DNA from: Comamonas testosteroni ATCC 11996
GTDB lineage: Bacteria; Pseudomonadota; Gammaproteobacteria; Burkholderiales; Burkholderiaceae_C
Assembly: GCF_000241525.1 (NCBI RefSeq)
Contig: NZ_AHIL01000002.1
Coordinates: forward strand, 1-64,000
Length of the DNA stretch: 64,000 nt
Direction of reading: 5' to 3'
How positions within the stretch are numbered: position 1 is the stretch's first letter; each line of letters opens with the position of its first letter. The position numbers were made by a program, and so were the translations under genes. Of this stretch, positions 16,163 through 34,479 are shown piece after piece. A model generated the notes under the pieces. The model was not told where the DNA came from, ran no database searches, and was given only the letters and a program-made list of their open reading frames with translations.

Positions 16163-16172
16163 CAGCCCTCAC

Positions 16173-16224: not shown

Positions 16225-16287
16225 AATGATTGCGACGACCCTGCGCTTCAGGCCATGGTCGCCCACCTAGCACCAAGGAGAATGACG

Positions 16288-17490: not shown

Positions 17491-17513
17491 TTTCGCTTCG
17501 GCGAAAATGTCGG

Positions 17514-17547
17514 GCCACCTGCATTCACGCAGGTGGCTTTTCTTATT
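17514..17547 (+). terminator. Internal terminator between binding protein and permease genes
   Basis: The perfect 9-bp stem GCCACCTGC (17514-17522) and GCAGGTGGC (17529-17537) encloses a 6-base loop and is followed by TTTTCTTATT. It probably ends part of the transcripts after the binding-protein gene, giving more binding protein than permease. Confidence 0.75.
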
Positions 17548-17583
17548 CACCCACACTATGTCGAGCTTCAGGAGCTAAGCAGC

Positions 17584-19509
17584 ATGAGTGCATCCGGCCT
17601 GCTGGCCCAGTTGCTCAACGGACTGGCCAGCGCATCGTCGCTGTTTCTGGTTTCGGTCGGGCTGTCGCTGATCTTCGGTGTCACCCGCACCATCAACTTC
17701 GCCCATGGCTCGTTCTACATGCTGGGCGCCTTCATCGCCTACAGCAGCGTGGACCTGCTCTCGCCCCATATTGGTTTCTGGCCCGCGCTGCTGCTGGCTC
17801 CGCTGGCCTGCGGCGCACTGGGGGCGCTGACCGAGACACTGCTTCTGCGCCGCATCTACAAGGCGCCCGAGCTGTTCCAACTGCTGGCCACGTTTGCGCT
17901 GGTGCTGGTCATCAAGGATGCGGCGCTGTGGCTGTGGGGCCCCGAGGAACTGTTCGGCCCGCGTGCCGCAGGGCTTGAAGGCTCGGTGGAGATTCTGGGC
18001 CGCCAGTTCCCCACTTACGATATTTTCCTGATAGCGGTCGGTCCCTGCGTGCTCCTGGGTCTGACGCTTTTGTTGACCAGGACCCGCTTTGGCACCCTGG
18101 TGCGTGCCGCCACACAGGACCGCGAAATGGTGGGTGCCCTGGGCGTCAACCAGGCCTGGCTGTTCACCGCCGTCTTCGCACTGGGCACGCTGCTGGCAGG
18201 CCTTGGCGGCGCGCTGCAGCTGCCGCGTGAGCCCGCCAGTCTGGAGATGGACATGCTCACCATTGGCGCCGCGTTTGTGGTGGTCGTGGTCGGCGGCATG
18301 GGCAGCATACCGGGGGCCTTCATTGCCGCGTTGCTGGTGGCGGAGCTCAAGGCCGTCTGCGTCTGGCTGGGCGTGCAGGAGATCGCGGGTCTTGAGCTGT
18401 CGTTCTCCAAGCTCACGCTGGTGGTGGAGTTCCTGGTCATGGCCGTGGTGCTGATCTGGCGACCCTGGGGCCTGTTGGGCAAGCCACAGGCGCTGGCACG
18501 CAGCGCTGGCGAGCCCGAGCAACCTCTGCACCGCACAGGCCGTGGCGCATCGGCCGCCTGGCTGTGCCTGCTGACCCTTCTGGTGCTGCTGCCGCTGATG
18601 GCCAGCAGCGCCGAAGGCGGCAGCTACGCCACCGTGCTGCTGGCCGACATCTTTGTCGCCGCACTGTTCGCGAGCAGTCTGCACTTCATACTCGGGCCCG
18701 GCGGCATGCACTCCTTCGGTCATGCGGCCTACTTTGGCCTCGGTGCCTACGGTGCGGCACTGCTGGTGCGTACGCTGAATCTGCCCATGGAAGCCGCACT
18801 GCTGCTCGGCCCCCTGGCCGCCGCTGCGGGCGCCCTGCTCTATGGCTGGTTCTGCGTGCGGCTGTCAGGCGTCTACCTGACCATGCTGACGCTGGCGTTT
18901 GCGCAGATCAGCTGGGCCATCGTCTTTCAGTGGGATGACTTCACGGGCGGCAGCAACGGCCTGACTGGCGTATGGCCCCCCGAATGGGCATCACAGGGTC
19001 CGGCGTTCTACTGGCTGGCTCTGGGCATCTGCGCACTAGGCATCTATCTGCTGCGCCGCCTGCTGTTTTCGCCGCTGGGCTACGCGCTGCGCGCATCGCG
19101 CGACTCGGCTCTGCGGGCCGATGCGATCGGCATCGACGTGCGCCGCATTCAGTGGACGGCGTTCGTGATCGCCGGGCTGTTTGCCGGTCTGGCCGGAGCG
19201 CTGTTTGCCTTCAGCAAGGGCGGCGTGGCACCCGACGCCATGTCGGTCACCAAATCGGTGGATGCACTGGTCATGGTGCTGCTGGGCGGCGTGCAGACGC
19301 TGGCCGGCCCCATGGTGGGCGCAGCAGCCTTTACCTGGCTGCACGACACCGTGGCGCGCAACACCGAATACTGGCGCGCGCTGATGGGGGCGACCATGCT
19401 GATTCTGGTGCTGCTGGCACCGCAGGGCATTGCAGGCTATGCGCAACTGCTGTGGTCGCGCACATGTGGCAAGGTATGCGGCAAGGACAAAGCAGGAGCC
19501 AGGACATGA
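17584..19509 (+). CDS. Fused LivH-LivM-type ABC permease
   Basis: This 641-residue protein joins both permease halves of a branched-chain-amino-acid-type importer. The LivH half is about residues 1-292 (FGVTRTINFAHGSFYMLGAF near the start). A hydrophilic linker covers about 293-325. The LivM half follows, with GPGGMHSFGHAAYFGLGAYG and the ATPase-contact loop RDSALRADAIGIDVRRI. The ATG at 17584 has AGGAG nine bases upstream. The stop overlaps the next gene by ATGA. Separate livH and livM genes are the common arrangement, so this is a true fusion with no frameshift visible. Confidence 0.9.
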   Translation: MSASGLLAQLLNGLASASSLFLVSVGLSLIFGVTRTINFAHGSFYMLGAFIAYSSVDLLSPHIGFWPALLLAPLACGALGALTETLLLRRIYKAPELFQLLATFALVLVIKDAALWLWGPEELFGPRAAGLEGSVEILGRQFPTYDIFLIAVGPCVLLGLTLLLTRTRFGTLVRAATQDREMVGALGVNQAWLFTAVFALGTLLAGLGGALQLPREPASLEMDMLTIGAAFVVVVVGGMGSIPGAFIAALLVAELKAVCVWLGVQEIAGLELSFSKLTLVVEFLVMAVVLIWRPWGLLGKPQALARSAGEPEQPLHRTGRGASAAWLCLLTLLVLLPLMASSAEGGSYATVLLADIFVAALFASSLHFILGPGGMHSFGHAAYFGLGAYGAALLVRTLNLPMEAALLLGPLAAAAGALLYGWFCVRLSGVYLTMLTLAFAQISWAIVFQWDDFTGGSNGLTGVWPPEWASQGPAFYWLALGICALGIYLLRRLLFSPLGYALRASRDSALRADAIGIDVRRIQWTAFVIAGLFAGLAGALFAFSKGGVAPDAMSVTKSVDALVMVLLGGVQTLAGPMVGAAAFTWLHDTVARNTEYWRALMGATMLILVLLAPQGIAGYAQLLWSRTCGKVCGKDKAGART

Positions 19510-20267
19510 ACCTGCTGCAAGTACAGAACCTCAGCAAGGCCTTTGGCGGCGTGAAAGCCGTGCAACAGGTTTCATTCGACCTGCAGGCGGGCGAGCTGCT
19601 GGCCCTGATCGGCCCCAACGGCGCGGGCAAGAGCACTACCTTCAACATGGTCGGCGGCCAGTTAGCGCCCGATAGCGGCCAGGTGCTGCTGAACGGCCAG
19701 CCCATCACGGGCCTGCCGCCACGCGCCATCTGGCGCAAGGGTGTGGGACGCACCTTTCAGATTGCACAGACTTTTGCCTCGCTCAGCGTGGCGGAAAACG
19801 TGCAGATGGCTCTGCTGTCGGCCGATTGCAGGATCTTCAGCTGGTGGCCGCGTGCCGCCAGCCACCGCCGTGCCGACGCACTGGCCCTGCTGGAGCAGGT
19901 GGGCATGGCCGCTCAGGCCGATCGCCCCTGCAGCGCTCTGGCCTATGGCGATGTGAAACGAGTGGAGCTGGCCATGGCGCTGGCCCATGACCCGCAATTG
20001 CTGCTCATGGACGAACCCACGGCCGGCATGGCCCCGGGTGAGCGTGTGGCTCTGATGCAGCTGACGCGCCGGATTGCGCAGCAACGCCGCATGGGCGTGC
20101 TGTTTACCGAGCACAGCATGGATGTGGTTTTCGGTCAGGCGGACCGTGTGGCCGTGCTGGTGCGCGGCCAGTTGCTGGCCGAAGGTACGCCGCAAGCCAT
20201 TCGCGACGACGCGCGCGTGCAGCAGGCCTACCTCGGTACCGGCCTTGTTCTTGAAAAACAGCAATGA
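19506..20267 (+). CDS. livG: LivG-type ABC transporter ATP-binding protein
   Basis: This 253-residue cytoplasmic ATPase has Walker A GPNGAGKST (about residue 36), Walker B LLLMDEPTAGMAP and the H-loop TEHSMDVVF. The signature is the LivG-style ALAYGDVKRVELA rather than LSGGQ. Its ATG overlaps the permease stop and its own stop overlaps the livF start, so translation is probably coupled. The symbol marks the family only; the substrate is unknown. Confidence 0.9.
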   Translation: MNLLQVQNLSKAFGGVKAVQQVSFDLQAGELLALIGPNGAGKSTTFNMVGGQLAPDSGQVLLNGQPITGLPPRAIWRKGVGRTFQIAQTFASLSVAENVQMALLSADCRIFSWWPRAASHRRADALALLEQVGMAAQADRPCSALAYGDVKRVELAMALAHDPQLLLMDEPTAGMAPGERVALMQLTRRIAQQRRMGVLFTEHSMDVVFGQADRVAVLVRGQLLAEGTPQAIRDDARVQQAYLGTGLVLEKQQ

Positions 20268-21034
20268 ATCAAATGCATAGCAACCAGCACTTGATGGATA
20301 AGGGCAAGAGCCCCAAATTGCTTGAAGTCCAGAACCTCAACGCCTGGTATGGCGCGGCCCATATCCTGCATGAGGTATCGCTGAACGTGGGGCGCGGCGA
20401 GGTCGTGGCACTGATGGGGCGCAATGGCGCAGGCAAGTCCACCACGCTCAAAAGCATTGCCGCCCTGGTGCCGCGCCGCGAGGGCAGTATCCGCTTCATG
20501 GGCGAGGCGCTGGAGAAAAAGGCCTCGCACCAGATCGCACAGCGCGGCCTGGGCTATGTGCCCGAGGACCGCCGCATCTTTACCGAACTGACAGTGCTGG
20601 AAAACCTTGAGGTCGGCAAGCAAAAGCCACGCCGCTGGCCCGACGGCCAGGCCGTGCCGCACTGGACACCCGAAAAGCTGTTTGCGCTTTTCCCCAACCT
20701 GGGCGAGATGCCCGAGCGCCTTGGCGGGCGCATGAGCGGTGGCGAGCAGCAGATGCTGAGCGTGGCCCGCACGCTGATGGGCCAGCCCTGTCTGGTGCTG
20801 CTGGACGAGCCCTCCGAGGGGGTTGCTCCGCTGATCGTCGAGCAGATGGCGCGCACGATTCTGGAGCTGAAGGCACAGGGCATTGGCATCTTGCTCAGCG
20901 AGCAGAACCTGCCGTTTGCCGAGGTCGTGGCCGACCGGGCCTATGTGCTGGAAAAAGGTCAGATCGTGCACGCGGCCAGCATGGCCGAGCTGGCGGGCGA
21001 CAAGGCGGCACGCCAGCAATATCTGGGCGTTTGA
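20264..21034 (+). CDS. livF: LivF-type ABC transporter ATP-binding protein
   Basis: This 256-residue ATPase has Walker A GRNGAGKST, signature MSGGEQQMLSVAR, Walker B LVLLDEPSEGVAP and the LivF-specific VPEDRRIFTELTV segment. The N-terminus has about 18 extra residues before LLEVQNLNAWYG. A later start is possible, but the ATG overlapping the livG stop fits coupling. It is the last gene of the importer operon and converges on the YiiX-like gene, with only 10 bp between stops. Confidence 0.9.
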   Translation: MNQMHSNQHLMDKGKSPKLLEVQNLNAWYGAAHILHEVSLNVGRGEVVALMGRNGAGKSTTLKSIAALVPRREGSIRFMGEALEKKASHQIAQRGLGYVPEDRRIFTELTVLENLEVGKQKPRRWPDGQAVPHWTPEKLFALFPNLGEMPERLGGRMSGGEQQMLSVARTLMGQPCLVLLDEPSEGVAPLIVEQMARTILELKAQGIGILLSEQNLPFAEVVADRAYVLEKGQIVHAASMAELAGDKAARQQYLGV

Positions 21035-21044
21035 AAGCCGAGGT

Positions 21045-21632
21045 TCAGCGCGTCGGCAGCAAGGGCGTCAGCGCGCGCAGCCGGCTGGAGCGCAACAGGC
21101 TGCTCGGCAGCAGATAACGGCCGCCCAGAATCGGCAGTTCCACCTCGGTAAATACCACCTCGAGATCCGCTCCACTTTGCAGCCAGGCCTGCCAGACCAG
21201 CGTGGTGCAATAGATGCCCTTGCCCGAGCCCAGCAGCTGAAACGGCTGGCCCTGCTGGGCCATGGCCCAGGCCACGGCCCGCTCACGTGTGCCGGGGTCG
21301 GAAGCGACCTGATACAGGCGATAGGCCTGAGCGCGCTGAGCGTCCAGAAAAAAGTCCAGCGAATCCAGCACCACTGCATCCGCCTGACCCGGGCGCTCGG
21401 ACGGCGTGGCATGCAACACCTGCCACTGACCGGGCCGCCCCACCAGCATGCCCACATGGCTGAAGTCACCATGGTCCACGGCTTGCACCAGGTGGCTGAC
21501 GTTCTCCGTCCCACGACGAAAGATCAGATCGCCGGGCGCAGCCTGCGGCGGCAATGGCGGCATTGCAAAAGCCAGGTCCACAGAGCAGGCCGACACCGCG
21601 ATCACAGCGGCCGTTGCCAGCCACAGAGGCAT
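21045..21632 (-). CDS. YiiX/YebB-like NlpC/P60-related (permuted papain fold) protein
   Basis: This 195-residue, probably exported protein has an N-terminal hydrophobic segment with a cysteine (AVSACS) and a signal-like end near AFAM. The permuted papain-type motifs are GDLIFR (35-40), the catalytic-type His59 in DFSHVGM and Cys142 in IYCTTLVW. Relatives are amidase or thioesterase-like hydrolases; the substrate is unknown. The ATG at 21632 overlaps the stop of the preceding lipoprotein gene (GTGATG junction), so the two are coupled and probably act together in the envelope. Confidence 0.78.
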   Translation of the reverse strand: MPLWLATAAVIAVSACSVDLAFAMPPLPPQAAPGDLIFRRGTENVSHLVQAVDHGDFSHVGMLVGRPGQWQVLHATPSERPGQADAVVLDSLDFFLDAQRAQAYRLYQVASDPGTRERAVAWAMAQQGQPFQLLGSGKGIYCTTLVWQAWLQSGADLEVVFTEVELPILGGRYLLPSSLLRSSRLRALTPLLPTR

Positions 21633-22060
21633 CACAGCAGCACTTTCCAGACACCTTCTTCCTGGACCAGATTGATGCGCTCGCGGCGGGTGCTGCCATC
21701 GCGATAGCTGACCAGCACCCTGAGCTTGATGACCTGCTCTTCCTCGGAAACTGTTCTTTCCACCACTTCCACCTTGGCCAGGCCGCCCTTGGAGTCGATC
21801 ATTCCCTTGGCGCCTGCCAGCATGCGGCGCAGCTTGTGCTCAAAACTCGCCAGCTGCTTCCTGGAAATATTGCGTGCCGAGATCAGGGCAATGCAGGCGT
21901 CGAAATCGCCAGCCGCCATCAGCGCGTAAAAGCGCTGGATCAGCGCATCCTGACTTTGTTCAGGGGTAGTCGTGGCACAGGCCGACAGCCCCAGAGCCAG
22001 AGGCAGCGAGAAGGAAAGATACAGACAGCAGCGGCGGGAAAGGGAGACAGAAGCAGACAC
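21632..22060 (-). CDS. Small putative lipoprotein of unknown function
   Basis: This small protein has a lipobox LGLSAC after a hydrophobic stretch. The Cys would be residue 29 if translation starts at the GTG at 22060. An upstream TTG at 22108 is open in frame but would add a cysteine-rich, unlikely leader. The mature part of about 110 residues (IQRFYALMAAGDFDACIALI, then a basic middle and a beta-rich end VSYRDGSTRRERINLV) resembles small periplasmic DUF4878/NTF2-like proteins by eye. It is coupled to the YiiX-like gene. The start is uncertain. Confidence 0.6.
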   Translation of the reverse strand: MSASVSLSRRCCLYLSFSLPLALGLSACATTTPEQSQDALIQRFYALMAAGDFDACIALISARNISRKQLASFEHKLRRMLAGAKGMIDSKGGLAKVEVVERTVSEEEQVIKLRVLVSYRDGSTRRERINLVQEEGVWKVLL

Positions 22061-22142
22061 GGACCGGGTACAGCAAAAACAAGGAAGGCCGCAGTGTAGT
22101 CGCCACAACGGCCCTGCCCTTGCCTGCAGTCAGTGCACCGGC

Positions 22143-23000
22143 TTATTCGACCACCACCGGACTGAACTCCGGTGGTGCGCCGAAATAGGCGCGCGGAGAC
22201 GGCGGCTGCGCGCCATCGATGTCCTGCACGCCGTACTGGCTGGCCAGTTCGGCCGTGTAGAACACGCCGCCGGAGCGCTTTTCCAGGCAGTCGGCATCGC
22301 CATGCAAGGCCAGCACCACCCGGCCAATGAATTGCGGCGTTTCGGCGCTGTCGAAACTGTCGCCGTACTTGTCGGGTTCGGCCGCGCAGACGCGTTGGGA
22401 GCGTTCGGTCCTGACCAGTCCAGGCCAGAGCGAAACCACGCTTACGCCGGCAGGCCTGAAATCGTGGGCCATGTCGAAGCTCATCTTGTCCGAGCCGGCT
22501 TTGCCCGCGCCATAGGCCGGCCCATGCATATAGCAGCGGCTGCCTGCCGACGAGATATTGACCACCAGGCCGCGAGCCGCGATCAGCAGCCCCGCCGCGC
22601 AATGGCTGGCCACGTAGGTGGAGCGCAGCCCCACATCGAGCAGCCCGGTCATCTCCAGCGACTTTTGCCAGAACGGGCCAGGCACGGTCAGCGGATCGGG
22701 AATCGCAATTGCACAGTTGACCAGAATGTCGAGCCGGCCATGCTCGCGGCGTACGCGCTCGAAGAGCGCCGCCACCTGGACATCATCGCCATGATCACAT
22801 GCCACGGCAATGCCGTTGCCACCGGCAGCCGTCACATCGGCGGCCGTCCTGCCCACCGTGCCGGGCAAGGGCGAGTCGCCCTCCTTCACGCTGCGCCCGG
22901 TGACATAGACGGTGGCCCCCGATGCGCCCAGCGCCAGCGCCACTCCCCGGCCCACGCCACGGCTGCCCCCCGTCACCACACATACCAAAGCCTGGTTCAT
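22143..23000 (-). CDS. Short-chain dehydrogenase/reductase (DHRS1-like)
   Basis: This 285-residue NAD(P)-dependent oxidoreductase has the cofactor motif TGGSRGVG (10-17), and the catalytic Tyr163 and Lys167 lie in AYGAGKAG with Ser150/151 in NISSAG. The NNAG motif is replaced by NCAIA. The ATG at 23000 has AAAGGA. It is the last gene of the leftward block with the CitE-like and MmgE/PrpD genes. Its substrate is probably a CoA-pathway hydroxy or oxo intermediate, by context only. Confidence 0.86.
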   Translation of the reverse strand: MNQALVCVVTGGSRGVGRGVALALGASGATVYVTGRSVKEGDSPLPGTVGRTAADVTAAGGNGIAVACDHGDDVQVAALFERVRREHGRLDILVNCAIAIPDPLTVPGPFWQKSLEMTGLLDVGLRSTYVASHCAAGLLIAARGLVVNISSAGSRCYMHGPAYGAGKAGSDKMSFDMAHDFRPAGVSVVSLWPGLVRTERSQRVCAAEPDKYGDSFDSAETPQFIGRVVLALHGDADCLEKRSGGVFYTAELASQYGVQDIDGAQPPSPRAYFGAPPEFSPVVVE

Positions 23001-23071
23001 GCTCTTTCCTTTGTGTCTTGAAGCAGCATGAATCTGGAGCAAACCACGGCGCCCGGCAACGTCCGATAAGA

Positions 23072-23944
23072 CTATGTCTTGCGATGCATGCGCTGCAGGG
23101 CCCAGGCGTGGCGGGCCAGTGTCTGCTGCGCCAGATGGAGCACGGGCGCATCCACCATGCGGCCGTCCAGAACGCAGACACCGCCGCCAGCCTCGGCCAG
23201 TGCCTGGCACAGGCGCTGCGCCTGGGTCACTGCAGCGGGGTCGGGGTCGAAGACAGCGTGCAGCGGCTGCACCTGGGCCGGGTGAATGCACAGCTTGCCG
23301 CCAAAGCCCATGCGCCGCGCGCGTGCCGCGTCCTGGGCCAGCCGCTCGGGGTTGCGTGTGTCTACTGTCACGCCGTCCACGGCCGCGCCGATGCCGGCGC
23401 GGCGCGAGGCCAGGACCAGGGCCATGCGCATGGGCAGGAGTTCTTCCTCGCCCTGCTCGCAGGCCATGCCCGCATCGACCTGGAAGTCCAGGTGGCCGAA
23501 GGCCAGGCGCACCACCTGGGGCGCGGCGGCCAGGGCGTCGGCCGCGTCCAGGCCGGCCACGCTTTCGATGAGGGGCAGCACGGCTGCCCGTGCGCCCGCA
23601 GCCTTGGCCACCGCATGCAGGGTCTGGGCACGCTCGGCCTTGGAGACCATGGCACCGGCCACGCCCTGCTCCACCAACTGCGCCAGCGCGCGCAGGTCAT
23701 CCGCATGCCAGGGCGTGCCTTCGGCGTTGATGCGCACCAGCAGGCGGGCACGGGCCGGGCCTTCCAGCGCTTCCACGGCCTGGGCCAGCATCTGGCGCGC
23801 GCCCTCCTTGTCGGCCGGTGCCACGGCGTCCTCCCAGTCGGCGATCACCATGTCGGCACCGCTGCCCATGGCCTTGCCCAGGCGCTCGGGCCGCGTGGCG
23901 GGGACGAAGAGAAAGGAAGTGGCCTGTCGCGCCAGATCGTGCAT
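23072..23944 (-). CDS. CitE-like CoA-ester lyase (HpcH/HpaI family; citramalyl- or malyl-CoA lyase type)
   Basis: This 290-residue TIM-barrel lyase cleaves or forms 3-hydroxyacyl-CoA esters such as citramalyl-CoA (to acetyl-CoA and pyruvate) or malyl-CoA. FLFVPATRPERLGKA is the family start. Arg71 (in LVRINAEG), Glu127 (in LPLIES) and Asp153 (in GHLDFQ) match CoA/Mg ligands, and GKLCIHPAQV comes late. The usual DLEDAV appears as DWEDAV. No citrate lyase alpha/gamma genes are nearby, so it is a stand-alone lyase. With the CaiB and hydratase genes of the same block, (S)-citramalyl-CoA lyase is the best guess. Confidence 0.85.
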   Translation of the reverse strand: MHDLARQATSFLFVPATRPERLGKAMGSGADMVIADWEDAVAPADKEGARQMLAQAVEALEGPARARLLVRINAEGTPWHADDLRALAQLVEQGVAGAMVSKAERAQTLHAVAKAAGARAAVLPLIESVAGLDAADALAAAPQVVRLAFGHLDFQVDAGMACEQGEEELLPMRMALVLASRRAGIGAAVDGVTVDTRNPERLAQDAARARRMGFGGKLCIHPAQVQPLHAVFDPDPAAVTQAQRLCQALAEAGGGVCVLDGRMVDAPVLHLAQQTLARHAWALQRMHRKT

Positions 23945-23966
23945 GCGTATGTCCTTGCGGGAGTGC

Positions 23967-24965
23967 TTATTCGGCCGAGACGCCTGCGGCCTTGATGACC
24001 TTGTCCCAGCGCGCTACCTCGGCCTGCAGGTGGGTGCGCAGGCCTTCCGGCGTGGCCTTGTCGGGAGTGACCAGGTCGGAGCTGAGTTCGGCGATGCGCT
24101 TTTTGACGTTCTCGTCCTTGATGGCCACGTTCAGCGCCTTGTTGATGGCCATGACCACCTCCCTTGGCGTGCCCTTGGGCGCGTACATGCCGTGCCAGAC
24201 CTTGACGTCAAAGCCCTTCAGGCCCTGCTCGTCCAGCGTCGGAATGCTGGGCAGGGACGACAGACGCTTGGGCGTGGTCACGCCGAAGACCTTGGCGCGC
24301 TGGCCGTCCTTGATCACGGGCACGGTCTGGGTGGTCTGGTCACACAGCAGGTCCACCTGGCCGCCCATGAGATCGTTCATGGCAGGGCCTGCACCCTTGT
24401 AGGGTACGGTGGTGAGCTTGACGCCCGCCTGGTGCATGAACAGCATGCCGCACAGCTGGGAGACGGCGCCGATGCCGGCATTGGCCAGCGAGACCTTGTC
24501 CTGGTTCTTCCTCACGTAGTCCAGCAGCTCGGCGAAGTTGCCGGCCGGGAAGTCCTTGCGCGACAGCAGGGTCATGGGCACGTCCAGCACCTGGCCGATG
24601 TACTCGAAGTCCTTGAGCGGGTCATAGGGCAGCTTCTTGTACAGCGCGGGTGCCGTGGCCATGCCCATGTGGTGGATGAGGATGGTGTAGCCGTCCGCCT
24701 TGGCCTTGGCTACGCGGGCCGGTGCGATGGTGCCGCCCGCTCCCACGGTGTTTTCCACCAGCACGCTCTGGCCTAGCACCTGCCCCATGGGAATGGCCAG
24801 CAGGCGCGCCACCACGTCGGTAGGTCCGCCCGCACTGTAGGGAACGACAAGGACAACCGGCTTCTCCGGCCAGGAACTGGCTTGGGCGCCGGCGCATGCC
24901 GCCAGTGCGCAGGCGGCAGCCGCTGCGTGAGCAAGGCGGCGGCGGAAAGGGCTTGTGCTTTGCAT
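23967..24965 (-). CDS. Bug-family (TctC-like) substrate-binding protein
   Basis: This 332-residue periplasmic binding protein has a signal peptide ending ACAGAQASS (about 30 residues). The motifs are LVVPYSAGGPTDVVAR, VLVENTVGAGGTI and TVPYKGAGPAMNDLMGGQV. AGGAGA lies before the ATG at 24965; an open extension upstream lacks a ribosome binding site. It lies between the MmgE/PrpD and CitE-like genes, 22 bp from the latter. The ligand is probably the acid degraded by this block, possibly itaconate, mesaconate or a tricarboxylate; that is inference. Confidence 0.92.
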   Translation of the reverse strand: MQSTSPFRRRLAHAAAAACALAACAGAQASSWPEKPVVLVVPYSAGGPTDVVARLLAIPMGQVLGQSVLVENTVGAGGTIAPARVAKAKADGYTILIHHMGMATAPALYKKLPYDPLKDFEYIGQVLDVPMTLLSRKDFPAGNFAELLDYVRKNQDKVSLANAGIGAVSQLCGMLFMHQAGVKLTTVPYKGAGPAMNDLMGGQVDLLCDQTTQTVPVIKDGQRAKVFGVTTPKRLSSLPSIPTLDEQGLKGFDVKVWHGMYAPKGTPREVVMAINKALNVAIKDENVKKRIAELSSDLVTPDKATPEGLRTHLQAEVARWDKVIKAAGVSAE

Positions 24966-25056
24966 GGTTTGTCTCCTGTGCACTTTGGTGGAAGCGGGAG
25001 GCGCTCTGGGACGGCGCCTTTCCCGTGGATCCGCCGGCCGGGGCCGGCGGGAAAAC

Positions 25057-26421
25057 TCAGTCCAGCAGGCGCTGCACGCGCGGCCATTGCGCGACCTGCC
25101 ACAGCCGCTGTACGGCCGCCTTTGCCGGTGCGTCCTGCAACACCCTGCCATAGGCGATCAGCCGCAGCGCCTTGGCCGTGATCTCCTCGCGCGACAACGT
25201 GTTGCCGGGGTCACCCTTGGGCTCTTCCACGCGGCCGTGCAGCGTGCGGCCATCGGTGGTGAGCACGGTGACCTTGCCGATCCAGCGGCGCGGGTAGGCG
25301 GCATCGACCTCGGCATCCAGAACCATCGAGACCTTCTCGCGCAGGGCCACCGTGGTGGCGGCCAGGTATTCGCTGTCGAATTCGTCGAGGCCGGCATGGC
25401 CGTAGCGCGCAGCCAGCGCCAGCACGGTTCCCATGGAGAACTTGCTCTGGTGCACGGTGCTCGGACTGACCACGGGGCCCAGTACATCGATGGCGCCCTG
25501 GTGCACATGGCAGGTGACCTGTGCCAGATCTGCGGGGGTCAGGCCATGGTCCTGCATGACCTGCAGCAACGCGTCAGCCGCCGGGTGGGTGTGGCGGCAG
25601 GAGGCATGCCATTTGAACGAGGTCTCGGCAGTGGCCCAACGCATGCCCAGACCATCCGTGAGACGCGTTGGATCGGCATCCGTTGACATGCCTGCAGCCA
25701 GTCCCTGCGGCCCCGTGAAGATGTCCTGCGCGCCCGTGAAACCGTCCTGCGCCAGGAAGGCGGCCGTCAGCCCCACCGAGGCGGCATGCGCCGTGTGCAG
25801 CTGCTTGCTGTCGGCGCCTGTGCGCAGAAACTCCCACAGCCCGGCCGACTGCGTGCCGGCCGAGCCGAAGGCATGCTGCATCTGCTCGGGCGTCAGCTTG
25901 AGCAGGCGGCCCACGGCGGCAGCCGCTGCCAGCGTGCCGGCAGTGGCCGTGGTGTGGAAGATGCGGTAGTGGCTGCGGCCCAGAAACTCGCCCACGCGGA
26001 TGCCGACCTCGTAGCCGGCCACGCAGGCGGCCATGAGCTCGGTGCCGCTGGCGCCGATGCTCTGGGCCACGGCCAGCGCGGGCGGGAAGACCACAGCGGC
26101 GGGATGGAACACCGAGCCGTTGTGCACATCGTCCTGCTCGGCCACATGCGAGGCCGCGGCATTGGCCTGGGCCGCCATCATGGGCGAGGTGGTGACGGCA
26201 CTGCCCAGAATCTCGCAAGGCCCCTGCGCCGGCCCCTGGGACAGCGCGAAGCGCGTAATGCTCTGCACGGGGCGCGCGCCCTGGCCCGCCATCACCGAAC
26301 CGAACCAGTCCACCCAAAGATCTTCGGCGCGGCGCTGCACCTCCTGCGGAATGTCCTCCCAGCACAGCGTGGCCGCGAACCGGGCCAGCGGATGAATGCT
26401 CACTTGGGTGTCGTTTTTCAT
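25057..26421 (-). CDS. MmgE/PrpD-family protein
   Basis: This 454-residue protein belongs to the family that holds 2-methylcitrate dehydratase (PrpD), cis-aconitate decarboxylase (CAD/IRG1) and iminodisuccinate epimerase. Visible features are the N-terminal helical domain, HVAEQDDVHNGSVFHPAA (about residues 100-120), an alanine-rich helix before GRLLKLT, and the basic segment FKWHASCRHTHPAADA. The start at 26421 has GGGAG. It is not beside prpB/prpC, so a methylcitrate role is unlikely. Between CaiB-type and CitE-like genes, a role on itaconate/aconitate-like acids is plausible but unproved. Confidence 0.85.
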   Translation of the reverse strand: MKNDTQVSIHPLARFAATLCWEDIPQEVQRRAEDLWVDWFGSVMAGQGARPVQSITRFALSQGPAQGPCEILGSAVTTSPMMAAQANAAASHVAEQDDVHNGSVFHPAAVVFPPALAVAQSIGASGTELMAACVAGYEVGIRVGEFLGRSHYRIFHTTATAGTLAAAAAVGRLLKLTPEQMQHAFGSAGTQSAGLWEFLRTGADSKQLHTAHAASVGLTAAFLAQDGFTGAQDIFTGPQGLAAGMSTDADPTRLTDGLGMRWATAETSFKWHASCRHTHPAADALLQVMQDHGLTPADLAQVTCHVHQGAIDVLGPVVSPSTVHQSKFSMGTVLALAARYGHAGLDEFDSEYLAATTVALREKVSMVLDAEVDAAYPRRWIGKVTVLTTDGRTLHGRVEEPKGDPGNTLSREEITAKALRLIAYGRVLQDAPAKAAVQRLWQVAQWPRVQRLLD

Positions 26422-26455
26422 GGAATCACTCCCGCGCATACGGTGCGCACAGTTC

Positions 26456-27652
26456 TCACAGAGTCGCTTCTTCGGCGTAAAGGGCACGGATGCGCTCGAC
26501 CGACCAGCCCAGCTCGGCCAGGATGGCCTCGCTGTGCTCGCCTACGGAGGGCACCGCCTCCATGCGGTAGTCAAAGGCACTGTTGACGCCGGGCGGCAGC
26601 AAGGCCTGCACGGGACCGCCCGGACTGTCCACGCTGCACCAGCGCTGACGCGCGGCCAGCTGCTGATGGGCCCACAGGCCGGCCATGTCGTTGACTCGCG
26701 CATTGGCAATGCCGGCCGCGTCCAGCCGCTGCACCACCTGGGCAGCATCCAGCGCGTTGAATACATCCAGGATCAGCGCTCGCAGCTCCTCACGGTTGGC
26801 GTTGCGTCGCGCGTTGCTGTCGAAGCGCGCATCGCCGGCCAGAGCAGGCTGCAGCAGCACCTGCTCGCAAAAGAGCTTCCATTCGCGCTCGTTCTGCAGG
26901 CCCAGCATCACCGTGCCGCCATCACCTGCCTCGAAGGGGCCATAGGGATAGATGCTGGCATGCGAGGCACCCGTGCGCGGCGGCGGCGGCGCGCCGTCCC
27001 AGGCGTAGTACATGGGATAGCCCATCCATTCGCCCAGTGCCTCCAGCATGGAGACATCGATATGGCTGCCCTCGCCCGTACGCCCGCGCAGCAGCAGGGC
27101 CGAGAGAATATTCGTATAGGCGTACATCCCGGCCGCGATATCGGCCACCGAGATGCCGGCCTTGGACGGCTCCTGCTCCGTGCCCGTGACCGAGAGAAAC
27201 CCCGCCTCGCTCTGGATCAGCAGGTCATAGGCCTTCTTGTCGCGGTAGGGGCCGTCTGCGCCGTAGCCGCTGATGTCGCAGACGATGAGCTTGGGGTTAC
27301 GAGCCTTCAGCACCTCCCAGGACAGCCCCATGCGTGCAGCAGCGCCGGGCGCCAGGTTCTGCACCAGCACGTCGGCGCCTTCGAGCAGTTGCATCAGCGC
27401 CTCCAGCGCATCGGGCCGCTTGAGATCGAGCGCCAGGCTTTGCTTGCTGCGGTTGATCCAGGTGAAGTGCGAGGAATGGCCGTTGACGCGCTGGTCGTAG
27501 CCGCGCGCGAAATCGCCGCTTCCCGGACGCTCCACCTTGATCACGCGCGCGCCTAGATCAGCGAGCTGGCGGGTGCAGAAAGGCGCGGCCACCGCATGTT
27601 CCAGCGAGACGACGGTGATGCCGTCGAGGGGTCGAAGACTATGCTTTTTCAT
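26456..27652 (-). CDS. CaiB/BaiF (class III) CoA-transferase
   Basis: This 398-residue CoA-transferase has LDGITVVSLEHAVAAPFCTR at the start, ADLGARVIKVERPGSGDFAR, and the catalytic Asp in KAYDLLIQSEAG (about residue 167). VADIAAGMYAYTNILSALL and the later VNDMAGLWAHQQL are typical of the family. The start at 27652 matches family N-termini (MKKHSLRPLDG). It would activate an organic acid to its CoA ester using a CoA donor such as succinyl-CoA. In this operon, itaconate, mesaconate or a related C5 diacid is the likeliest acceptor. Confidence 0.9.
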   Translation of the reverse strand: MKKHSLRPLDGITVVSLEHAVAAPFCTRQLADLGARVIKVERPGSGDFARGYDQRVNGHSSHFTWINRSKQSLALDLKRPDALEALMQLLEGADVLVQNLAPGAAARMGLSWEVLKARNPKLIVCDISGYGADGPYRDKKAYDLLIQSEAGFLSVTGTEQEPSKAGISVADIAAGMYAYTNILSALLLRGRTGEGSHIDVSMLEALGEWMGYPMYYAWDGAPPPPRTGASHASIYPYGPFEAGDGGTVMLGLQNEREWKLFCEQVLLQPALAGDARFDSNARRNANREELRALILDVFNALDAAQVVQRLDAAGIANARVNDMAGLWAHQQLAARQRWCSVDSPGGPVQALLPPGVNSAFDYRMEAVPSVGEHSEAILAELGWSVERIRALYAEEATL

Positions 27653-27711
27653 CTTGGAAATCCATTGCACTTTGGCGAAACTCACGAACCGAACAACTGG
27701 CGCGCTCAAAG

Positions 27712-27809
27712 CCAGGGACAGCAAGCAGGGGCCTTGGCGGCCCCGCCGCCCCGCAGCGAGGCTGTCGCCGGATGCCCGTACGCCCCCCGGCGCGAAGCGA
27801 CTCAGGGGG
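27712..27809 (-). repeat. Stop-proximal GC-rich repeat element, copy 3
   Basis: Read on the minus strand it starts CCCCCTGAGTCGCTTCGCGCC eight bases after the acyl-CoA dehydrogenase stop. It passes through CTGCGGGGCGGCGGGG and ends near CCCCTGCTTGCTGTCCCTGG. It fills most of the gap before the CaiB-type gene. The middle stem is less regular than in copies 2 and 4. Confidence 0.65.
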
Positions 27810-27817
27810 TCTTCATT

Positions 27818-28984
27818 TCAGAATGAACGTGGCAGGCCCAGCAGGTGCTCGGCCACATAGGAATAGATCAGATTGGTGGAGATCGGCGCCACCTGATAGA
27901 GGCGGGTCTCGCGGAACTTGCGCTCCACGTCGTACTCGCAGGCAAAGCCGAAGCCACCGTGGAACTGGATGCAGGCATTGGCCGCCTCCCAGCTGGCCTT
28001 GGCCGCGAGATACTTGGCCATATTGGCCTGTGCGCCCATAGCCTGGTTCGCATCGAACAGCTCGCAGGCCTTCCAGCGCATGAGATTGGCGGCCTCGACC
28101 TCGATGAAGGCGTCAGCGATCGGGAACTGCACGCCCTGGTTCTGGCCGATGGGACGGCCGAACACCTGACGGTCCTTCACGTAATTCGTCACACGATCCA
28201 GGAACCAGTAGCCGTCACCTATGCACTCGGCCGCGATCAGCGTGCGCTCGGCGTTCAGACCGTCGAGGATGTACTTGAAACCCTTGCCTTCCTCGCCGAT
28301 CAGGTTCTCCTCGGGGATCTCCAGGTTCTCGAAGAACAGCTCGTTGGTCTCGTGGTTGACCATGTTGGGGATGGGGCGCACGGTCAGGCCGCTCTTCTGG
28401 GCCTCGGCCAGATCCACCATGAAGATGGACATGCCTTCGCTCTTCTTCTTCACGTCGGCCAGCGGCGTGGTGCGCGCCAGCAGGATCATGAAGTCGCTGT
28501 GCTGGATGCGGCTGATCCAGACCTTCTGGCCGTTGACCACATAGCGCCCGTCCTTCTTCACGGCGCTGGTCTTGATCTTGGTGGTGTCCGTGCCCGTGGT
28601 GGGCTCCGTGACACCCATGGACTGCAGCCGCCATTCGCCCGAGGCGATGCGCGGCAGGTATTTTTCCTTCTGCGCCTGCGAGCCATGGCGCAGCAGCGTG
28701 CCCATGTTGTACATCTGGCCGTGGCAGGCACCCGAGTTGCCGCCGCAGCGGTTGATCTCCTCCATGATGACGCTGGCCTCGGTCAGGCCCAGGCCGCTGC
28801 CGCCGTACTCCTGCGGAATCAGCGCGGCCAGCCAGCCCGCCTGCGTGAGCGCGTTGACGAAGGCTTCGGGGTAGATGCGCTGCTCGTCGATCTTGCGGAA
28901 ATACTCGTCGGGGAACTCCGCGCACAGCGCGCGGATGGCATCGCGGATCTCGTGGTGGTTGTTGGAGCTGGTGTGTTCAATCAT
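27818..28984 (-). CDS. Acyl-CoA dehydrogenase with shifted catalytic Glu
   Basis: This 388-residue FAD-dependent acyl-CoA dehydrogenase has VTEPTTGTDTTKIKT (FAD/substrate loop near residue 125), VNGQKVWIS, KDRQVFGRPIGQNQ and FHGGFGFACEY. The usual C-terminal catalytic Glu (YEGT in medium-chain types) is absent; that segment reads LYQVAPIST. Instead Glu246 lies in LNAERTLIAAE, the helix-G position used by isovaleryl-CoA and long-chain enzymes. This suggests a branched or unusual substrate, such as methylsuccinyl-CoA. It is followed by a GC-rich repeat and the CaiB-type gene. Confidence 0.9.
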   Translation of the reverse strand: MIEHTSSNNHHEIRDAIRALCAEFPDEYFRKIDEQRIYPEAFVNALTQAGWLAALIPQEYGGSGLGLTEASVIMEEINRCGGNSGACHGQMYNMGTLLRHGSQAQKEKYLPRIASGEWRLQSMGVTEPTTGTDTTKIKTSAVKKDGRYVVNGQKVWISRIQHSDFMILLARTTPLADVKKKSEGMSIFMVDLAEAQKSGLTVRPIPNMVNHETNELFFENLEIPEENLIGEEGKGFKYILDGLNAERTLIAAECIGDGYWFLDRVTNYVKDRQVFGRPIGQNQGVQFPIADAFIEVEAANLMRWKACELFDANQAMGAQANMAKYLAAKASWEAANACIQFHGGFGFACEYDVERKFRETRLYQVAPISTNLIYSYVAEHLLGLPRSF

Positions 28985-29005
28985 TTCAAGCCTTCTGGCG
29001 ACAAA

Positions 29006-29022
29006 CGCTTGTCCAGCAAGCG
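29006..29022. repeat. Short CGCTTG/CAAGCG hairpin
   Basis: CGCTTG-TCCAG-CAAGCG lies in the 61-bp gap between the hydratase-like gene and the acyl-CoA dehydrogenase gene. Similar AGCGCTTGC-type sequence occurs at 53250-53331. There is no T run, so it is more likely a repeat or mRNA hairpin than a terminator. Confidence 0.4.
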
Positions 29023-29045
29023 CTATCTAGCTATGGGTTCAGTCT

Positions 29046-29948
29046 TCAAGCCACGGTGGCCGTGGCATGCATGGTCAGAAGCCCTTCGTGGTCCTGCGCC
29101 CACAGGTCGATGGTCCTGCCGTCCTCGCGTGGCTTGCCGTGAACACTGAAAGGATGAAGGTCGAAGGTCGGCCGCAAGGCCTTGAAGTCGAACGCGACCA
29201 GCCTGGCGCCGGGCAACTGGCGGCGCAGCAGATCGAGCAGCAGCGTGGCAATCAGCGGACCATGCACGATCAGGCCCGGGTAGCCCTCGACCTGGGTCAC
29301 GTACTGGCGGTCGTAGTGGATGCGGTGACCGTTGAAGGTCAGCGCCGAGTAGCGAAACAGCAGCACGTCGTCGGGAACGATGGTGCGAGACCAGGCCGCC
29401 TGGCCGGCGAGCGGCGGCTGCTGCGGTGGCGGCACCGGGTCGCCGGGCCTTGCAGCGCCCCGGTAGACGATGTCGTGCTCTTCGGTCAGCGCCAGACCGT
29501 CCTGGTTCGAGAAACGGTGCTCCACCAGCACGAACAGCAGCTCGCCCGAGCGTCCTGTCTTGTGCTGCACGCTGCGGATGGTGGAGACGCGCTGCACCTG
29601 CTGCCCCAGGCGCAGCGGATTGAACGCTTCCCAGCGCAGCCGACCGCCCGCCCACATGCGGCGCGGCAGCGGCACGGGCGGCAGGAAGCCGCCGCGCCGG
29701 GGATGCCCGTCGGGTCCTATCTCGCTCTGGCGCGCATGCGGCAGGAAATACAGCCAGTGCCATAGCGGCGCCACCGGCGTACCGTGTGCGGGAGCAGGGT
29801 CATCCCGGTCCAGCGTGGCCGACAGGGCCCGCAAGGGAGCGGAGGTGATGAGGTCGAGCGTAGTTTCGCTTTTGCTCTGCCAGGCCTGAAGATGCGCCAG
29901 ATTGGCGTCGTCGATGATTGCAGGTTGCGGTTCTGTCATGGCTGCCAT
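29046..29948 (-). CDS. Mesaconyl-C4-CoA / itaconyl-CoA hydratase-like MaoC-fold protein
   Basis: This ~300-residue double-hotdog protein has an N-terminal FAS1-like dehydratase half (PLWHWLYFLPHARQSEIGPD, about residues 55-75) and a C-terminal half with the hydratase motif ALTFNGHRIHYD, then PGLIVHGPLIATLLLDLL. That combination is typical of mesaconyl-C4-CoA hydratase, and the same family includes itaconyl-CoA hydratase. Both give (S)-citramalyl-CoA, the substrate of a CitE-type lyase. ATGs at 29948 and 29939 are both possible; an upstream TTG is less likely. It heads the leftward block and is divergent from the SDR gene at 30150. Confidence 0.86.
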   Translation of the reverse strand: MAAMTEPQPAIIDDANLAHLQAWQSKSETTLDLITSAPLRALSATLDRDDPAPAHGTPVAPLWHWLYFLPHARQSEIGPDGHPRRGGFLPPVPLPRRMWAGGRLRWEAFNPLRLGQQVQRVSTIRSVQHKTGRSGELLFVLVEHRFSNQDGLALTEEHDIVYRGAARPGDPVPPPQQPPLAGQAAWSRTIVPDDVLLFRYSALTFNGHRIHYDRQYVTQVEGYPGLIVHGPLIATLLLDLLRRQLPGARLVAFDFKALRPTFDLHPFSVHGKPREDGRTIDLWAQDHEGLLTMHATATVA

Positions 29949-30149
29949 GGTCGAGGCAGCGACGTCGTCAGGCAAGCCGCGTTTTTGAAAGCATGTCTTC
30001 AGCGCTGCCTAAGGGCGTGACAACCCGTGGTGCGCAACAGCGGCTTTCACGCTGACGAAGTCCGTCCTCGGGATTGGCAAATGGCGTCCGCGCCGGTTTG
30101 CCGGCATGCTGGGCTCATCTCTCACGACAACAGCAAAGGACGACAAGCC

Positions 30150-31067
30150 ATGGCCCAGAAGATGATGCAAGACAAGGTCGTAGTGGTGACCGGCGCCGGA
30201 GGCGGCATCGGTCGAGACATTGCCTTGGCCATGGCGGCGTCGGGAGCCAGAGTGGTGGTCAACGACATCGGCACGTCCACCACAGGCGAAGGCACCGACG
30301 CCGGTCCGGCGCAGAAAGTGGTCGACGAGATCAAGTCCGCAGGCGGCCAGGCCGTTGCCAGTACCGACAGCGTCTCTGAAGCGGCCAGTGCCAGCCGCAT
30401 TGTGCAATGCGCGGTGGACAGCTTTGGCCGCATCGATGGCGTCGTCAACAACGCCGGCATTCTGCGCGACCGCTTCTTCCACAAGATGAGCCTGGAGGAG
30501 TGGGACGCCGTCATCAAGGTTCATCTCTACGGCAGCTACTTCATGAGCCGCGCCGCCGCCAACCACTTCAAGGAACAGGAAAGCGGCGCCCTGGTCCACA
30601 TGACGTCCACCTCCGGCCTGATCGGCAACCTGGGCCAGGCCAACTACAGCGCTGCCAAGCTGGGCCTAACCGCCCTGTCCAAATCCATTGCGTTGGACAT
30701 GGCCAAGTTCAATGTGCGCTCCAACTGCATCGCTCCCTTTGCCTGGAGCCGCATGATCGGCTCCATCCCCACCGATACCCCCGAGCAGCAGGCGCGCGTG
30801 GCCAAGATTCAGCAGATGACGCCCAACAAGATCGCGCCGCTGGCGGTCTATCTGCTGTCCGACCAGGCCAGGGATGTGAACGCCCAGGTCTTTGCCGTGC
30901 GTAACAACGAGCTGTTTCTGATGAGTCAGCCGCGTCCGCTGCGCTCGGTGCATCGCCGCGAAGGCTGGACACCCGAGTTCATTGCCGAGCACGGCATGCC
31001 CGCGCTCAAGGCCTCATTTGTACCCATGGATCGCTCGGCCGACGTGTTCAGCTGGGATCCGGTGTGA
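30150..31067 (+). CDS. SDR-family (3R)-hydroxyacyl-CoA dehydrogenase-like protein
   Basis: This 305-residue SDR resembles the dehydrogenase domain of peroxisomal multifunctional enzyme 2. The cofactor motif TGAGGGIG is at 14-21, NNAG at 100-103, and Tyr166 and Lys170 lie in ANYSAAK. It has a C-terminal extension of about 60 residues beyond the usual SDR core, as MFE-2-like proteins do. The ATG at 30150 has AAAGGA nine bases upstream. The next gene encodes a hydratase 2, which is the other half of an MFE-2-type pair. It is the first gene of the rightward catabolic block. Confidence 0.88.
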   Translation: MAQKMMQDKVVVVTGAGGGIGRDIALAMAASGARVVVNDIGTSTTGEGTDAGPAQKVVDEIKSAGGQAVASTDSVSEAASASRIVQCAVDSFGRIDGVVNNAGILRDRFFHKMSLEEWDAVIKVHLYGSYFMSRAAANHFKEQESGALVHMTSTSGLIGNLGQANYSAAKLGLTALSKSIALDMAKFNVRSNCIAPFAWSRMIGSIPTDTPEQQARVAKIQQMTPNKIAPLAVYLLSDQARDVNAQVFAVRNNELFLMSQPRPLRSVHRREGWTPEFIAEHGMPALKASFVPMDRSADVFSWDPV

Positions 31068-31076
31068 CCAGCTGCA

Positions 31077-31170
31077 CCCCCTGAGCGGCCACGCCGCTTC
31101 CCCCTCTCTCACGCTGCGCGTGGGAGGGGGACGACACCAGCGCGGCGGGGCGGCCCTTGCGCGGTGTCCC
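31077..31170 (+). repeat. Stop-proximal GC-rich repeat element, copy 4
   Basis: It starts CCCCCTGAGCGGC nine bases after the SDR stop. It has a stem TTCCCCCTCTC...GGGAGGGGG, ACGACACC, GCGGCGGGGCGGC, and ends CCCTTGCGCGGTGTCCC. This is one of the clearest copies. Confidence 0.7.
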
Positions 31171-31274
31171 CGCCGAAAGAGGCTCCATGCCCCGGCTTGT
31201 CTTTACTACCTCGCCTGCTTGCGGGAGAGGCCCCCCACAGCGCCCCATAGCGAATCACACCGAGGAGCCTGTCC

Positions 31275-32165
31275 ATGGCCATTGACTACCACCACCTCAA
31301 GGCGCGCCACTTCGAGCCTGTGCACCAGCAATACAGCGCACGCGACAGCATGTTGTATGCGCTCAGCCTGGGTCTGGGCAACGACCCGCTGGATCACAGC
31401 GCCCTGCCTTATGTGTTTGAGGGCAAGGACGGCCAGGGCCTGCTCACCCTGCCTTCTCAGGCCGTGGTGCTGGGTTACCCCGGCTTCTGGGCGCGCGAGC
31501 CCGACACCGGCATCGACTGGGTCAGGCTGCTGCATGGCGAACAGCGCATGCGGCTGCACCGACCGCTGCCAGCTGCCGCCCAGGTCGTGGGCCACAACCG
31601 GGTCACCCATCTGACGGACAAGGGCGAAGACAAGGGCTGCATCATGGTGACAGAGCGCCGCCTGGAAACCACCGACGGCACGCTGCTGGCCACCGTACAG
31701 CAGGTATCTTTTCTGCGCGGTGATGGGGGCTTCAGCCAGACCGGACAGCCCACGGACACCCCGCTGCCCGCGCTGCAATCCACACCGGAAGACAATGCAC
31801 CGCACTTCACAGACATCCAGGCAACTCGCCCCGAGGCCGCGCTGCTCTACCGCCTCTGCGGTGATTACAACCCTCTGCATGCAGACCCCGCAGTCGCCAC
31901 GGCCGCGGGCTTTGAGCGCCCCATTCTTCATGGTCTGGCCAGCTATGGCCTGGTCACCCGCGCCCTGTTGCGCCAGTGTGCGGGCGGCGATGCCTCACGC
32001 TTTCGGGCACTGGACATCCGTTTTGCCTCACCGGTCTTTCCCGGCGAAACCCTGGTCACCGAAATCTGGCGTGTGCCTGGCAGCCAGACGCATTACCAGT
32101 TGCGTGCCAAGGTGCAGGAACGCGACAAGCTGGTGCTCAGCCATGGTTTTGCGGAGCTGATGTGA
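31275..32165 (+). CDS. MaoC-family (R)-specific enoyl-CoA hydratase (hydratase 2)
   Basis: This 296-residue double-hotdog hydratase has the hydratase 2 motif YRLCGDYNPLHADP with catalytic Asp197 and His202, followed by GFERPILHGLASYG. GAGGAG lies seven bases before the ATG at 31275. Paired with the SDR gene upstream, it would give a two-step (R)-hydroxyacyl-CoA beta-oxidation module. The acyl chain is unknown. Confidence 0.9.
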   Translation: MAIDYHHLKARHFEPVHQQYSARDSMLYALSLGLGNDPLDHSALPYVFEGKDGQGLLTLPSQAVVLGYPGFWAREPDTGIDWVRLLHGEQRMRLHRPLPAAAQVVGHNRVTHLTDKGEDKGCIMVTERRLETTDGTLLATVQQVSFLRGDGGFSQTGQPTDTPLPALQSTPEDNAPHFTDIQATRPEAALLYRLCGDYNPLHADPAVATAAGFERPILHGLASYGLVTRALLRQCAGGDASRFRALDIRFASPVFPGETLVTEIWRVPGSQTHYQLRAKVQERDKLVLSHGFAELM

Positions 32166-32236
32166 TCCCCCTTCGGCGCGTTGAGCCTTCCCCGCATCAC
32201 GGCGCTCGCAGGCAGGGGATGCGGGGCGCCCCTTGT
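32166..32236 (+). repeat. Degenerate stop-proximal repeat element, copy 5
   Basis: It begins with CCCCCTTCGGCGCG within a few bases of the hydratase stop. It has CCTTCCCCGCATC and AGGGGATGCGGGGCGCCCCTTG, keeping the CCCC stem / GGGG stem / CCCTTG order in a shorter form. The remaining sequence up to the next gene at 32369 shows nothing recognisable. Confidence 0.45.
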
Positions 32237-32368
32237 ACGCAGCTCTGACCTAGGCCACGTCGGCTCTGGGCTTTGCACCACCGGTTTGCCTCCCTCTGCC
32301 AAGAAGATGTGTGAGGAACTGCCCAGCCTGCACATTCCGTTCTTTCCTCTCTTTGACTGGTACCAACC

Positions 32369-33166
32369 ATGAACACTCCTGCCGTATTGACCGCCGTAGA
32401 AAACGGTGTGGGAACCATTAGCCTCAACCGCCCCGAAGCGCGCAACGCCCTGAGCCTGGAAGTGCGCGACGGTCTGGCCCGGGCCGTAGTCCAGATGCGC
32501 GACGACGCCAATGTGCACACCGTGATTCTCACCGGCGCCGGCGGCGCCTTCTGTTCGGGCGGCGACATCGGTCTGATGATGAACAGCCGGCAAGACGGTG
32601 TGGCTCACCGGGAGCGTATGCGAGCCTTGCACCAATGGTTTGCCGAGCTGGTGAACATGGAAAAACCGGTGATTGCCGCCGTCGATGGCGCGGCCTTTGG
32701 TGCCGGACTGAGCCTGGCCCTGGCTGCCGACTTTGTGCTTGCCACACGCCGCTCCAAGTTCTGCGCCGTCTTCGGTCGCATCGGCCTGGTGCCAGACCTG
32801 GGCGCCATGCAGCTGCTGCCACGCAGCGTGGGTCTGCAAAAAGCCAAGGAGCTGGTGTTCACCGCACGCACCGTGGCTGCGGACGAGGCCAAGGCTCTGG
32901 GCATGGTCTACGACCTCGTCGAAGACGCTGCCGCATTGCAGCTGGCAGCCCAGCAACTGGCCGCCCGTTTTGCCGACGCATCGACGACGGCCATCGGTAT
33001 GGCCAAGAACATCATGAACCAGTCCTTCGAGCTGAACGCCCATGCAATGGCGGAGCTGGAAGCCAGTGCACAAGCCATTTGCCGCGGCTCCGACTACCAC
33101 TTGGACGCAGTGCGCCGCTTCAAGGACAAGCAAGCACTGCGCTTTGACTGGGATCGCAAGGAATGA
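32369..33166 (+). CDS. Enoyl-CoA hydratase/isomerase family protein (PaaG-type isomerase likely)
   Basis: This 265-residue crotonase-fold enzyme has oxyanion-hole segments GAFCSGGDIG (59-68) and DGAAFGAGLSLALAADF (106-122). The first hydratase Glu (FxxPExxLG) is not present; the segment is FGRIGLVPDLG with Asp143, as in PaaG, which acts as an isomerase. The Glu in KAKELVFTAR is kept. So a double-bond isomerase is more likely than a classic hydratase. Its stop overlaps the next start (ATGA). Confidence 0.88.
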   Translation: MNTPAVLTAVENGVGTISLNRPEARNALSLEVRDGLARAVVQMRDDANVHTVILTGAGGAFCSGGDIGLMMNSRQDGVAHRERMRALHQWFAELVNMEKPVIAAVDGAAFGAGLSLALAADFVLATRRSKFCAVFGRIGLVPDLGAMQLLPRSVGLQKAKELVFTARTVAADEAKALGMVYDLVEDAAALQLAAQQLAARFADASTTAIGMAKNIMNQSFELNAHAMAELEASAQAICRGSDYHLDAVRRFKDKQALRFDWDRKE

Positions 33167-34443: not shown

Positions 34444-34479
34444 GCCGCTTTCCCATCACCACCACAAGGAGCCCCCACC

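Follow-up and report, generated by a model that had tools for sequence, protein, structure and literature searches.

Which acids does a row of seven genes in Comamonas testosteroni ATCC 11996 act on, and does its MmgE/PrpD protein make itaconate or help to degrade it? The row lies in a stretch of 64,000 nucleotides (the window) from contig 62 of the 5.4 Mb genome. On the strength of orthology, we consider it very likely that positions 23072-29939 belong to the published type of cluster that serves to degrade itaconate and methylsuccinate in Pseudomonas aeruginosa and Cupriavidus necator; the MmgE/PrpD protein most probably isomerizes methylsuccinate and does not make itaconate. This type of cluster is already known, and the copy in the window is an ordinary member of it. 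The original prediction had proposed that the row degrades itaconate or related C5-dicarboxylates and that its acyl-CoA dehydrogenase serves a methylsuccinyl branch; orthology supports both proposals.

The gene families named in that prediction were confirmed: all seven genes are open reading frames with Pfam matches, all are on the minus strand, and together they span 22143-29939. From the first gene of the row to the last, with predicted functions, they are:

29046-29939, minus strand: ich, itaconyl-CoA hydratase / mesaconyl-C4-CoA hydratase (Pfam FAS1_DH_region)
27818-28984, minus strand: mcd, acyl-CoA dehydrogenase (Pfam Acyl-CoA_dh)
26456-27652, minus strand: ict, class III (CaiB/BaiF) succinyl-CoA:itaconate/(R)-methylsuccinate CoA-transferase (Pfam CoA_transf_3)
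25057-26421, minus strand: msi, (S)-(R)-methylsuccinate isomerase (Pfam MmgE_PrpD_N/C)
23967-24965, minus strand: Bug/TctC periplasmic binding protein, possibly an uptake receptor (Pfam TctC, PF03401)
23072-23944, minus strand: ccl, (S)-citramalyl-CoA lyase, CitE-like (Pfam HpcH_HpaI)
22143-23000, minus strand: short-chain dehydrogenase/reductase (SDR) family oxidoreductase, a codirectional neighbour (Pfam adh_short)

The gaps between these genes are 22 to 165 bases, and ich has an alternative start at an upstream ATG at 29948.

Orthology and gene order of the cluster

As the reference for the P. aeruginosa cluster, we used a plasmid-borne copy (locus L006, on P. aeruginosa plasmid p2014S05-249-1). 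At its two ends, this copy matches exactly the primers that were published for PA0878 (start) and PA0883 (end). Ich, mcd, msi, ict, and ccl are all present together in the window. BLAST against the P. aeruginosa-type proteins gives identities of 48% for Ich (PA0878), 79% for Mcd (PA0879), 60% for Msi (PA0881), 72% for Ict (PA0882), and 46% for Ccl (PA0883); in multiple alignments, Ich and Ccl are at 46% and 44%. The alignment of Ict covers 98% of the query. Searches of the C. testosteroni genome with the reference proteins also point to the window. The PA0878-type protein has one match, which is the window's Ich; the PA0882-type protein matches the window's Ict at 74% identity and 13 other proteins at 36% or less; and the PA0883-type protein matches the window's Ccl at 48% and one other protein at 28%. 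By its 72% identity and its lead over the 13 other matches, Ict is an ortholog of the class III enzyme PA0882. When solved structures are searched with Ich, two entries reach E = 0.001 or better: 8huc and 8khg, the latter named itaconyl-CoA hydratase. Each matches at E of about 1e-70.

The transferase of the rip operon of Yersinia pestis belongs to class I. The original prediction had therefore viewed the class III transferase as a sign of a variant layout. But the transferase of the P. aeruginosa-type cluster is itself annotated as CaiB/BaiF in L006 and is 72% identical to the window's. A class III transferase is thus normal for this type of cluster, so the layout is not a variant, and we rejected the idea of a new class III arrangement. 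With five genes for enzymes and a transferase of the CoA_transf_3 family, the row is not a three-gene rip cluster with a non-CaiB transferase.

Gonner et al. (2025) studied the C. necator and P. aeruginosa versions of the five-gene cluster (ich, mcd, msi, ict, and ccl); they measured what Ict, Msi, and Mcd do and cited the activities of Ich and Ccl from earlier work (PMC12290011). For the dehydrogenase and the isomerase, gene deletions in engineered P. putida had already led to an inference of the same functions (de Witt et al. 2023; PMC9875883). If the window's proteins have the activities of their orthologs, then Msi would interconvert (S)-methylsuccinate and (R)-methylsuccinate, and Ict would activate itaconate or (R)-methylsuccinate with CoA taken from succinyl-CoA. 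(The characterized Ict prefers (R)-methylsuccinate, followed by itaconate; PMC12290011.) Mcd would oxidize methylsuccinyl-C4-CoA to mesaconyl-C4-CoA; the characterized Mcd accepts both enantiomers of methylsuccinyl-C4-CoA (PMC12290011). Ich would convert itaconyl-CoA or mesaconyl-C4-CoA to (S)-citramalyl-CoA, which Ccl would split to acetyl-CoA and pyruvate. At the entry to the pathway, the Bug protein may hand the acids to a TctAB permease that is encoded elsewhere, which is the least certain step.

To see how the genes are arranged in relatives, we searched 299 genomes of the same family for msi (E of 1e-80 or better). It was present in 80 of them, including C. testosteroni itself. From 40 of the other 79 genomes, mostly those with msi on a long enough contig, we fetched regions of 14.8-18 kb and identified genes with tblastn (E of 1e-15, with 55% or more of the query covered). 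All five enzyme genes were found in 27 of the 40 regions, each time in the order ich-mcd-ict-msi-(bug)-ccl. The 17 kb that we fetched from C. metallidurans CH34 included mcd, msi, ich, and a Bug gene. Because Ich matches the hydratase structures and the gene order recurs in relatives, this set of families is more than a chance assembly.

Outside of these relatives, a plasmid of the actinobacterium Rubrobacter indicoceani (locus L007, 7435-10539) encodes homologs of Msi and Mcd, each 60% identical to the window's. These genes adjoin genes of the MaoC type and the lactate racemase type, and the 17 kb that we examined there revealed neither ict nor ccl.

The MmgE/PrpD protein and the competing readings

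The original prediction hinted that the MmgE/PrpD protein was a cis-aconitate decarboxylase. Within the C. testosteroni genome, MmgE_PrpD_N has one match, and this is the window's Msi. We built a tree of 22 MmgE/PrpD sequences, with a sample that included 8 of 29 relative loci (L011-L039), 5 of the 21 weaker plasmid hits that were listed (H20-H40), and E. coli PrpD. The 16 Msi sequences, including the window's and the PA0881-type protein, formed a single clade with support of 100/100. The six other sequences lay outside it, and the clade had the same support (100/100) after E. coli PrpD was removed, which left five. Among solved structures, the best match to Msi was MmgE from Bacillus subtilis (7bra, E = 1.7e-46), followed by IDS epimerase (E = 5.6e-34). 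B. subtilis MmgE has been placed outside of the decarboxylase clusters (PMC12290011).

The Msi proteins of three species were reported to be (S)-(R)-methylsuccinate isomerases, with activities of 53-79 umol per min per mg, and the isomerase was counted in 1767 species in GTDB r220 (PMC12290011). The same source gives it as a trait of msi that it adjoins the gene for methylsuccinyl-CoA dehydrogenase. In the window, ict sits between mcd and msi in one row, as it does in the relatives that share this gene order. The seven proposed active-site residues (H88, E91, H102, Y148, H152, K202, and K266 of the P. aeruginosa protein) correspond to H92, E95, H106, Y152, H156, K206, and K270 of the window's protein and are identical in all eight sequences that we aligned.

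Among the 120 relatives of the window's MmgE/PrpD protein that were listed, out of 7999 proteins scored, the best-matching ones with a named source are mostly from Comamonas and Delftia. Several of the 120 are annotated as "2-methylcitrate dehydratase," so the isomerase assignment would give these genes better names. Homologs are also found on plasmids: in the best 40 of 618 matching plasmid records, the first 19 are 52-71% identical to the window's protein and the next 21 are at 39% or less. The plasmid that carries our reference locus is typed as conjugative, and it holds the whole itaconate/methylsuccinate cluster along with TRAP transporter genes.

Several observations weigh against our assignment of the cluster. 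Identity to the P. aeruginosa-type proteins is just 44-48% for Ich and Ccl, and since C. necator has second homologs of ich and ccl that are probably for other pathways (PMC12290011), identity at this level does not by itself prove the substrate. Among the NCBIfam matches shown, no protein of the cluster reached a curated cut-off. The best model for Ccl was RipC_Ccl (146.5 bits, with a cut-off of 375), and the best for Ict was succinate--glutarate CoA-transferase (244 of 750); the best scores for Mcd and Msi were 236 of 640 and 47 of 950, and Ich had no match. One or more of the five genes was not found in the stretch fetched for 13 of the 40 relative regions, and the 17 kb from C. metallidurans CH34, our sole Cupriavidus, yielded neither ict nor ccl. 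The tree was made without cis-aconitate decarboxylases and without C. necator sequences, and several of its outgroup branches are long. Finally, in an alignment that also held six wrongly translated rows, the active-site residues of Msi recur in five other MmgE proteins, with E95 as the sole exception (Asp in two of the five). Because other MmgE proteins have these residues too, the substrate cannot be read from them.

The modest identities of Ich and Ccl would fit a block whose main substrate is another branched dicarboxylic acid, such as a C3-substituted analogue, which would be degraded through the same chemistry; itaconate and methylsuccinate would then be secondary substrates. The pocket of the isomerase could admit larger C3-modified substrates (PMC12290011). 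But the other three proteins are much closer to the P. aeruginosa type (Ict, Mcd, and Msi, at 72%, 79%, and 60%), and the set of genes equals that of the characterized cluster, so we view this alternative as very unlikely. It is more unlikely still that the MmgE/PrpD protein decarboxylates cis-aconitate and that the operon both makes and degrades itaconate; we give this almost no credence. Msi and cis-aconitate decarboxylase do belong to the same superfamily, and Msi does match structures of cis-aconitate decarboxylase chains (E of 5e-14 to 7e-11), but these matches are weaker than those to B. subtilis MmgE and IDS epimerase. The window's protein is 60% identical to the PA0881-type isomerase and shares its clade in our tree, which held no decarboxylase, and the isomerase from C. 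necator was reported to have no detectable activity on cis-aconitate or the other acids tested (PMC12290011). Given the clade and the inactivity of the C. necator enzyme, a role in making itaconate is unlikely, and methylsuccinate isomerase remains the most likely function. What looked like a lead to itaconate production in a bacterium thus falls away.

The SDR, the Bug protein, and the flanking genes

The original prediction had also listed the SDR in the block. It lies 71 bases downstream of ccl and in the same direction, and it could in principle add a further step, such as the oxidation or reduction of a hydroxylated derivative of itaconate, to give an extended pathway. However, the SDR was found in none of the 40 relative regions. 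Among the 299 family genomes, its closest copy (90% identical) is in a genome of the same genus (G128) that had no hit for msi, and no gene of the cluster was found in the 20 kb that we fetched from it. Those 20 kb match the window at 12133-21000 (in pieces) and at 22141-23025, and collinearity ends just upstream of the SDR. Conversely, another genome of the same genus (G219) matches the window at 23138-28966 and 29070-31104. These segments take in the cluster and what lies to its right but leave out the SDR. In light of the matches to G128 and G219, the SDR probably belongs to the chromosomal block on the left and is a neighbour rather than a pathway gene; an extended pathway seems quite improbable to us. 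Between the two parts that match G128 are Peptidase_C92-like and DUF4878 genes (21045-22108, minus strand), which have no match in the otherwise collinear region.

The Bug protein appears to travel with the cluster more often. Of the 40 relative regions, 22 have a copy with at least 55% identity, placed within the cluster or beside it. Scoring up to 7 Bug candidates per genome, we found copies at 64% identity or above in 35 of the 299 genomes, and 31 of these 35 also have msi, as compared to 80 of 299 overall (Fisher p = 2.5e-16, with relatedness ignored). In 23 of the 35, Bug is on the same contig as msi and within about 12 kb of it; the remaining 12 genomes have Bug at a greater distance or on another contig, or they lack msi. 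Within the C. testosteroni genome, TctA has three matches, on contigs C35, C26, and C5 (weak), and the window is on C62. TctA is therefore not encoded with Bug, as judged from a search of this genome that did not include TctB. C. necator was reported to lack the transporter of P. aeruginosa, and the same paper leaves the role of its neighbouring Bug gene open (PMC12290011). PMC12599236, which mentions itaconate, has "tripartite tricarboxylate transporter" in its reference list only. We tentatively suggest, as a possibility that we hold with less than even confidence, that Bug serves in the periplasm as a receptor devoted to itaconate and methylsuccinate, that it works with a TctAB permease encoded elsewhere, and that it is the betaproteobacterial counterpart of the TRAP system for itaconate in P. 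aeruginosa. The frequent association of Bug with the cluster sharpens the question of how betaproteobacteria import these two acids.

The genes that we tested directly beside the row (the SDR, Peptidase_C92, DUF4878, and a FabG-like SDR) are not regulators, and regulators elsewhere were not searched for. To the right of the row is a divergent block (30150-35688, plus strand) that encodes the FabG-like SDR, an MFE-2-type hydratase, an enoyl-CoA hydratase, a protein of the acetyl-CoA hydrolase/transferase family, and a thiolase; it looks like a separate operon of the beta-oxidation type. In the relative G289, all five of these genes are about 5 kb from the cluster, and in G219, the first of them adjoins ich, where the contig ends. 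We considered the CoA-transferase in this block (33163-34443, plus strand) as a RipA-like partner for the pathway. Because it belongs to the acetyl-CoA hydrolase/transferase family and lies beside genes of the beta-oxidation type, we assign it to another pathway. Its one NCBIfam match at E of 1e-30 or better is butyryl-CoA:acetate CoA-transferase, at 177 of 675 bits. Other CoA-transferases are encoded farther away in the window. A second class III enzyme (44250-45500, plus strand) has succinate--glutarate CoA-transferase as its best NCBIfam model (491 of 750 bits) and is perhaps a gene of the glutarate pathway. Another enzyme (12129-13667, minus strand) is a succinyl-CoA:acetate CoA-transferase, which scores 762 bits against the ScpC model (cut-off 500).

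Comparison with known systems

The best solved structure for the window's Msi, B. subtilis MmgE (7bra, titled "IRG1"), is a far weaker match than the PA0881-type protein. The rip operon of the Y. pestis type follows the same three-step route for itaconate as the window's cluster would, but it arose convergently: its enzymes are nonhomologous or distantly homologous, and it typically has three genes and no methylsuccinate branch (PMC12290011).

The cluster of C. necator (E6A55_22580-22600) shares all five enzyme types with the window, and it too has a TctC/Bug gene close by (E6A55_22575; PMC12290011). In the window, Bug is inside the row, between msi and ccl, and the SDR follows. For the related C. 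metallidurans CH34, identity to the window's proteins is 59% for Msi, 75% for Mcd, 51% for Ich, and 61% for the neighbouring Bug (BLAST).

The cluster of P. aeruginosa (PA0878-PA0886; PMC9875883, PMC12290011) has a match in the window for each of its five enzymes, at 46-79% identity, and its transferase is also of the CaiB/BaiF type. According to the annotation of L006, its genes are in the order ich-mcd-VOC-msi-ict-ccl, followed by three TRAP transporter genes. The VOC protein, PA0880, is a 2-hydroxyparaconate lactonase (PMC9875883). The row in the window differs in that ict precedes msi, there is no VOC gene, and Bug is present in place of the TRAP transporter.

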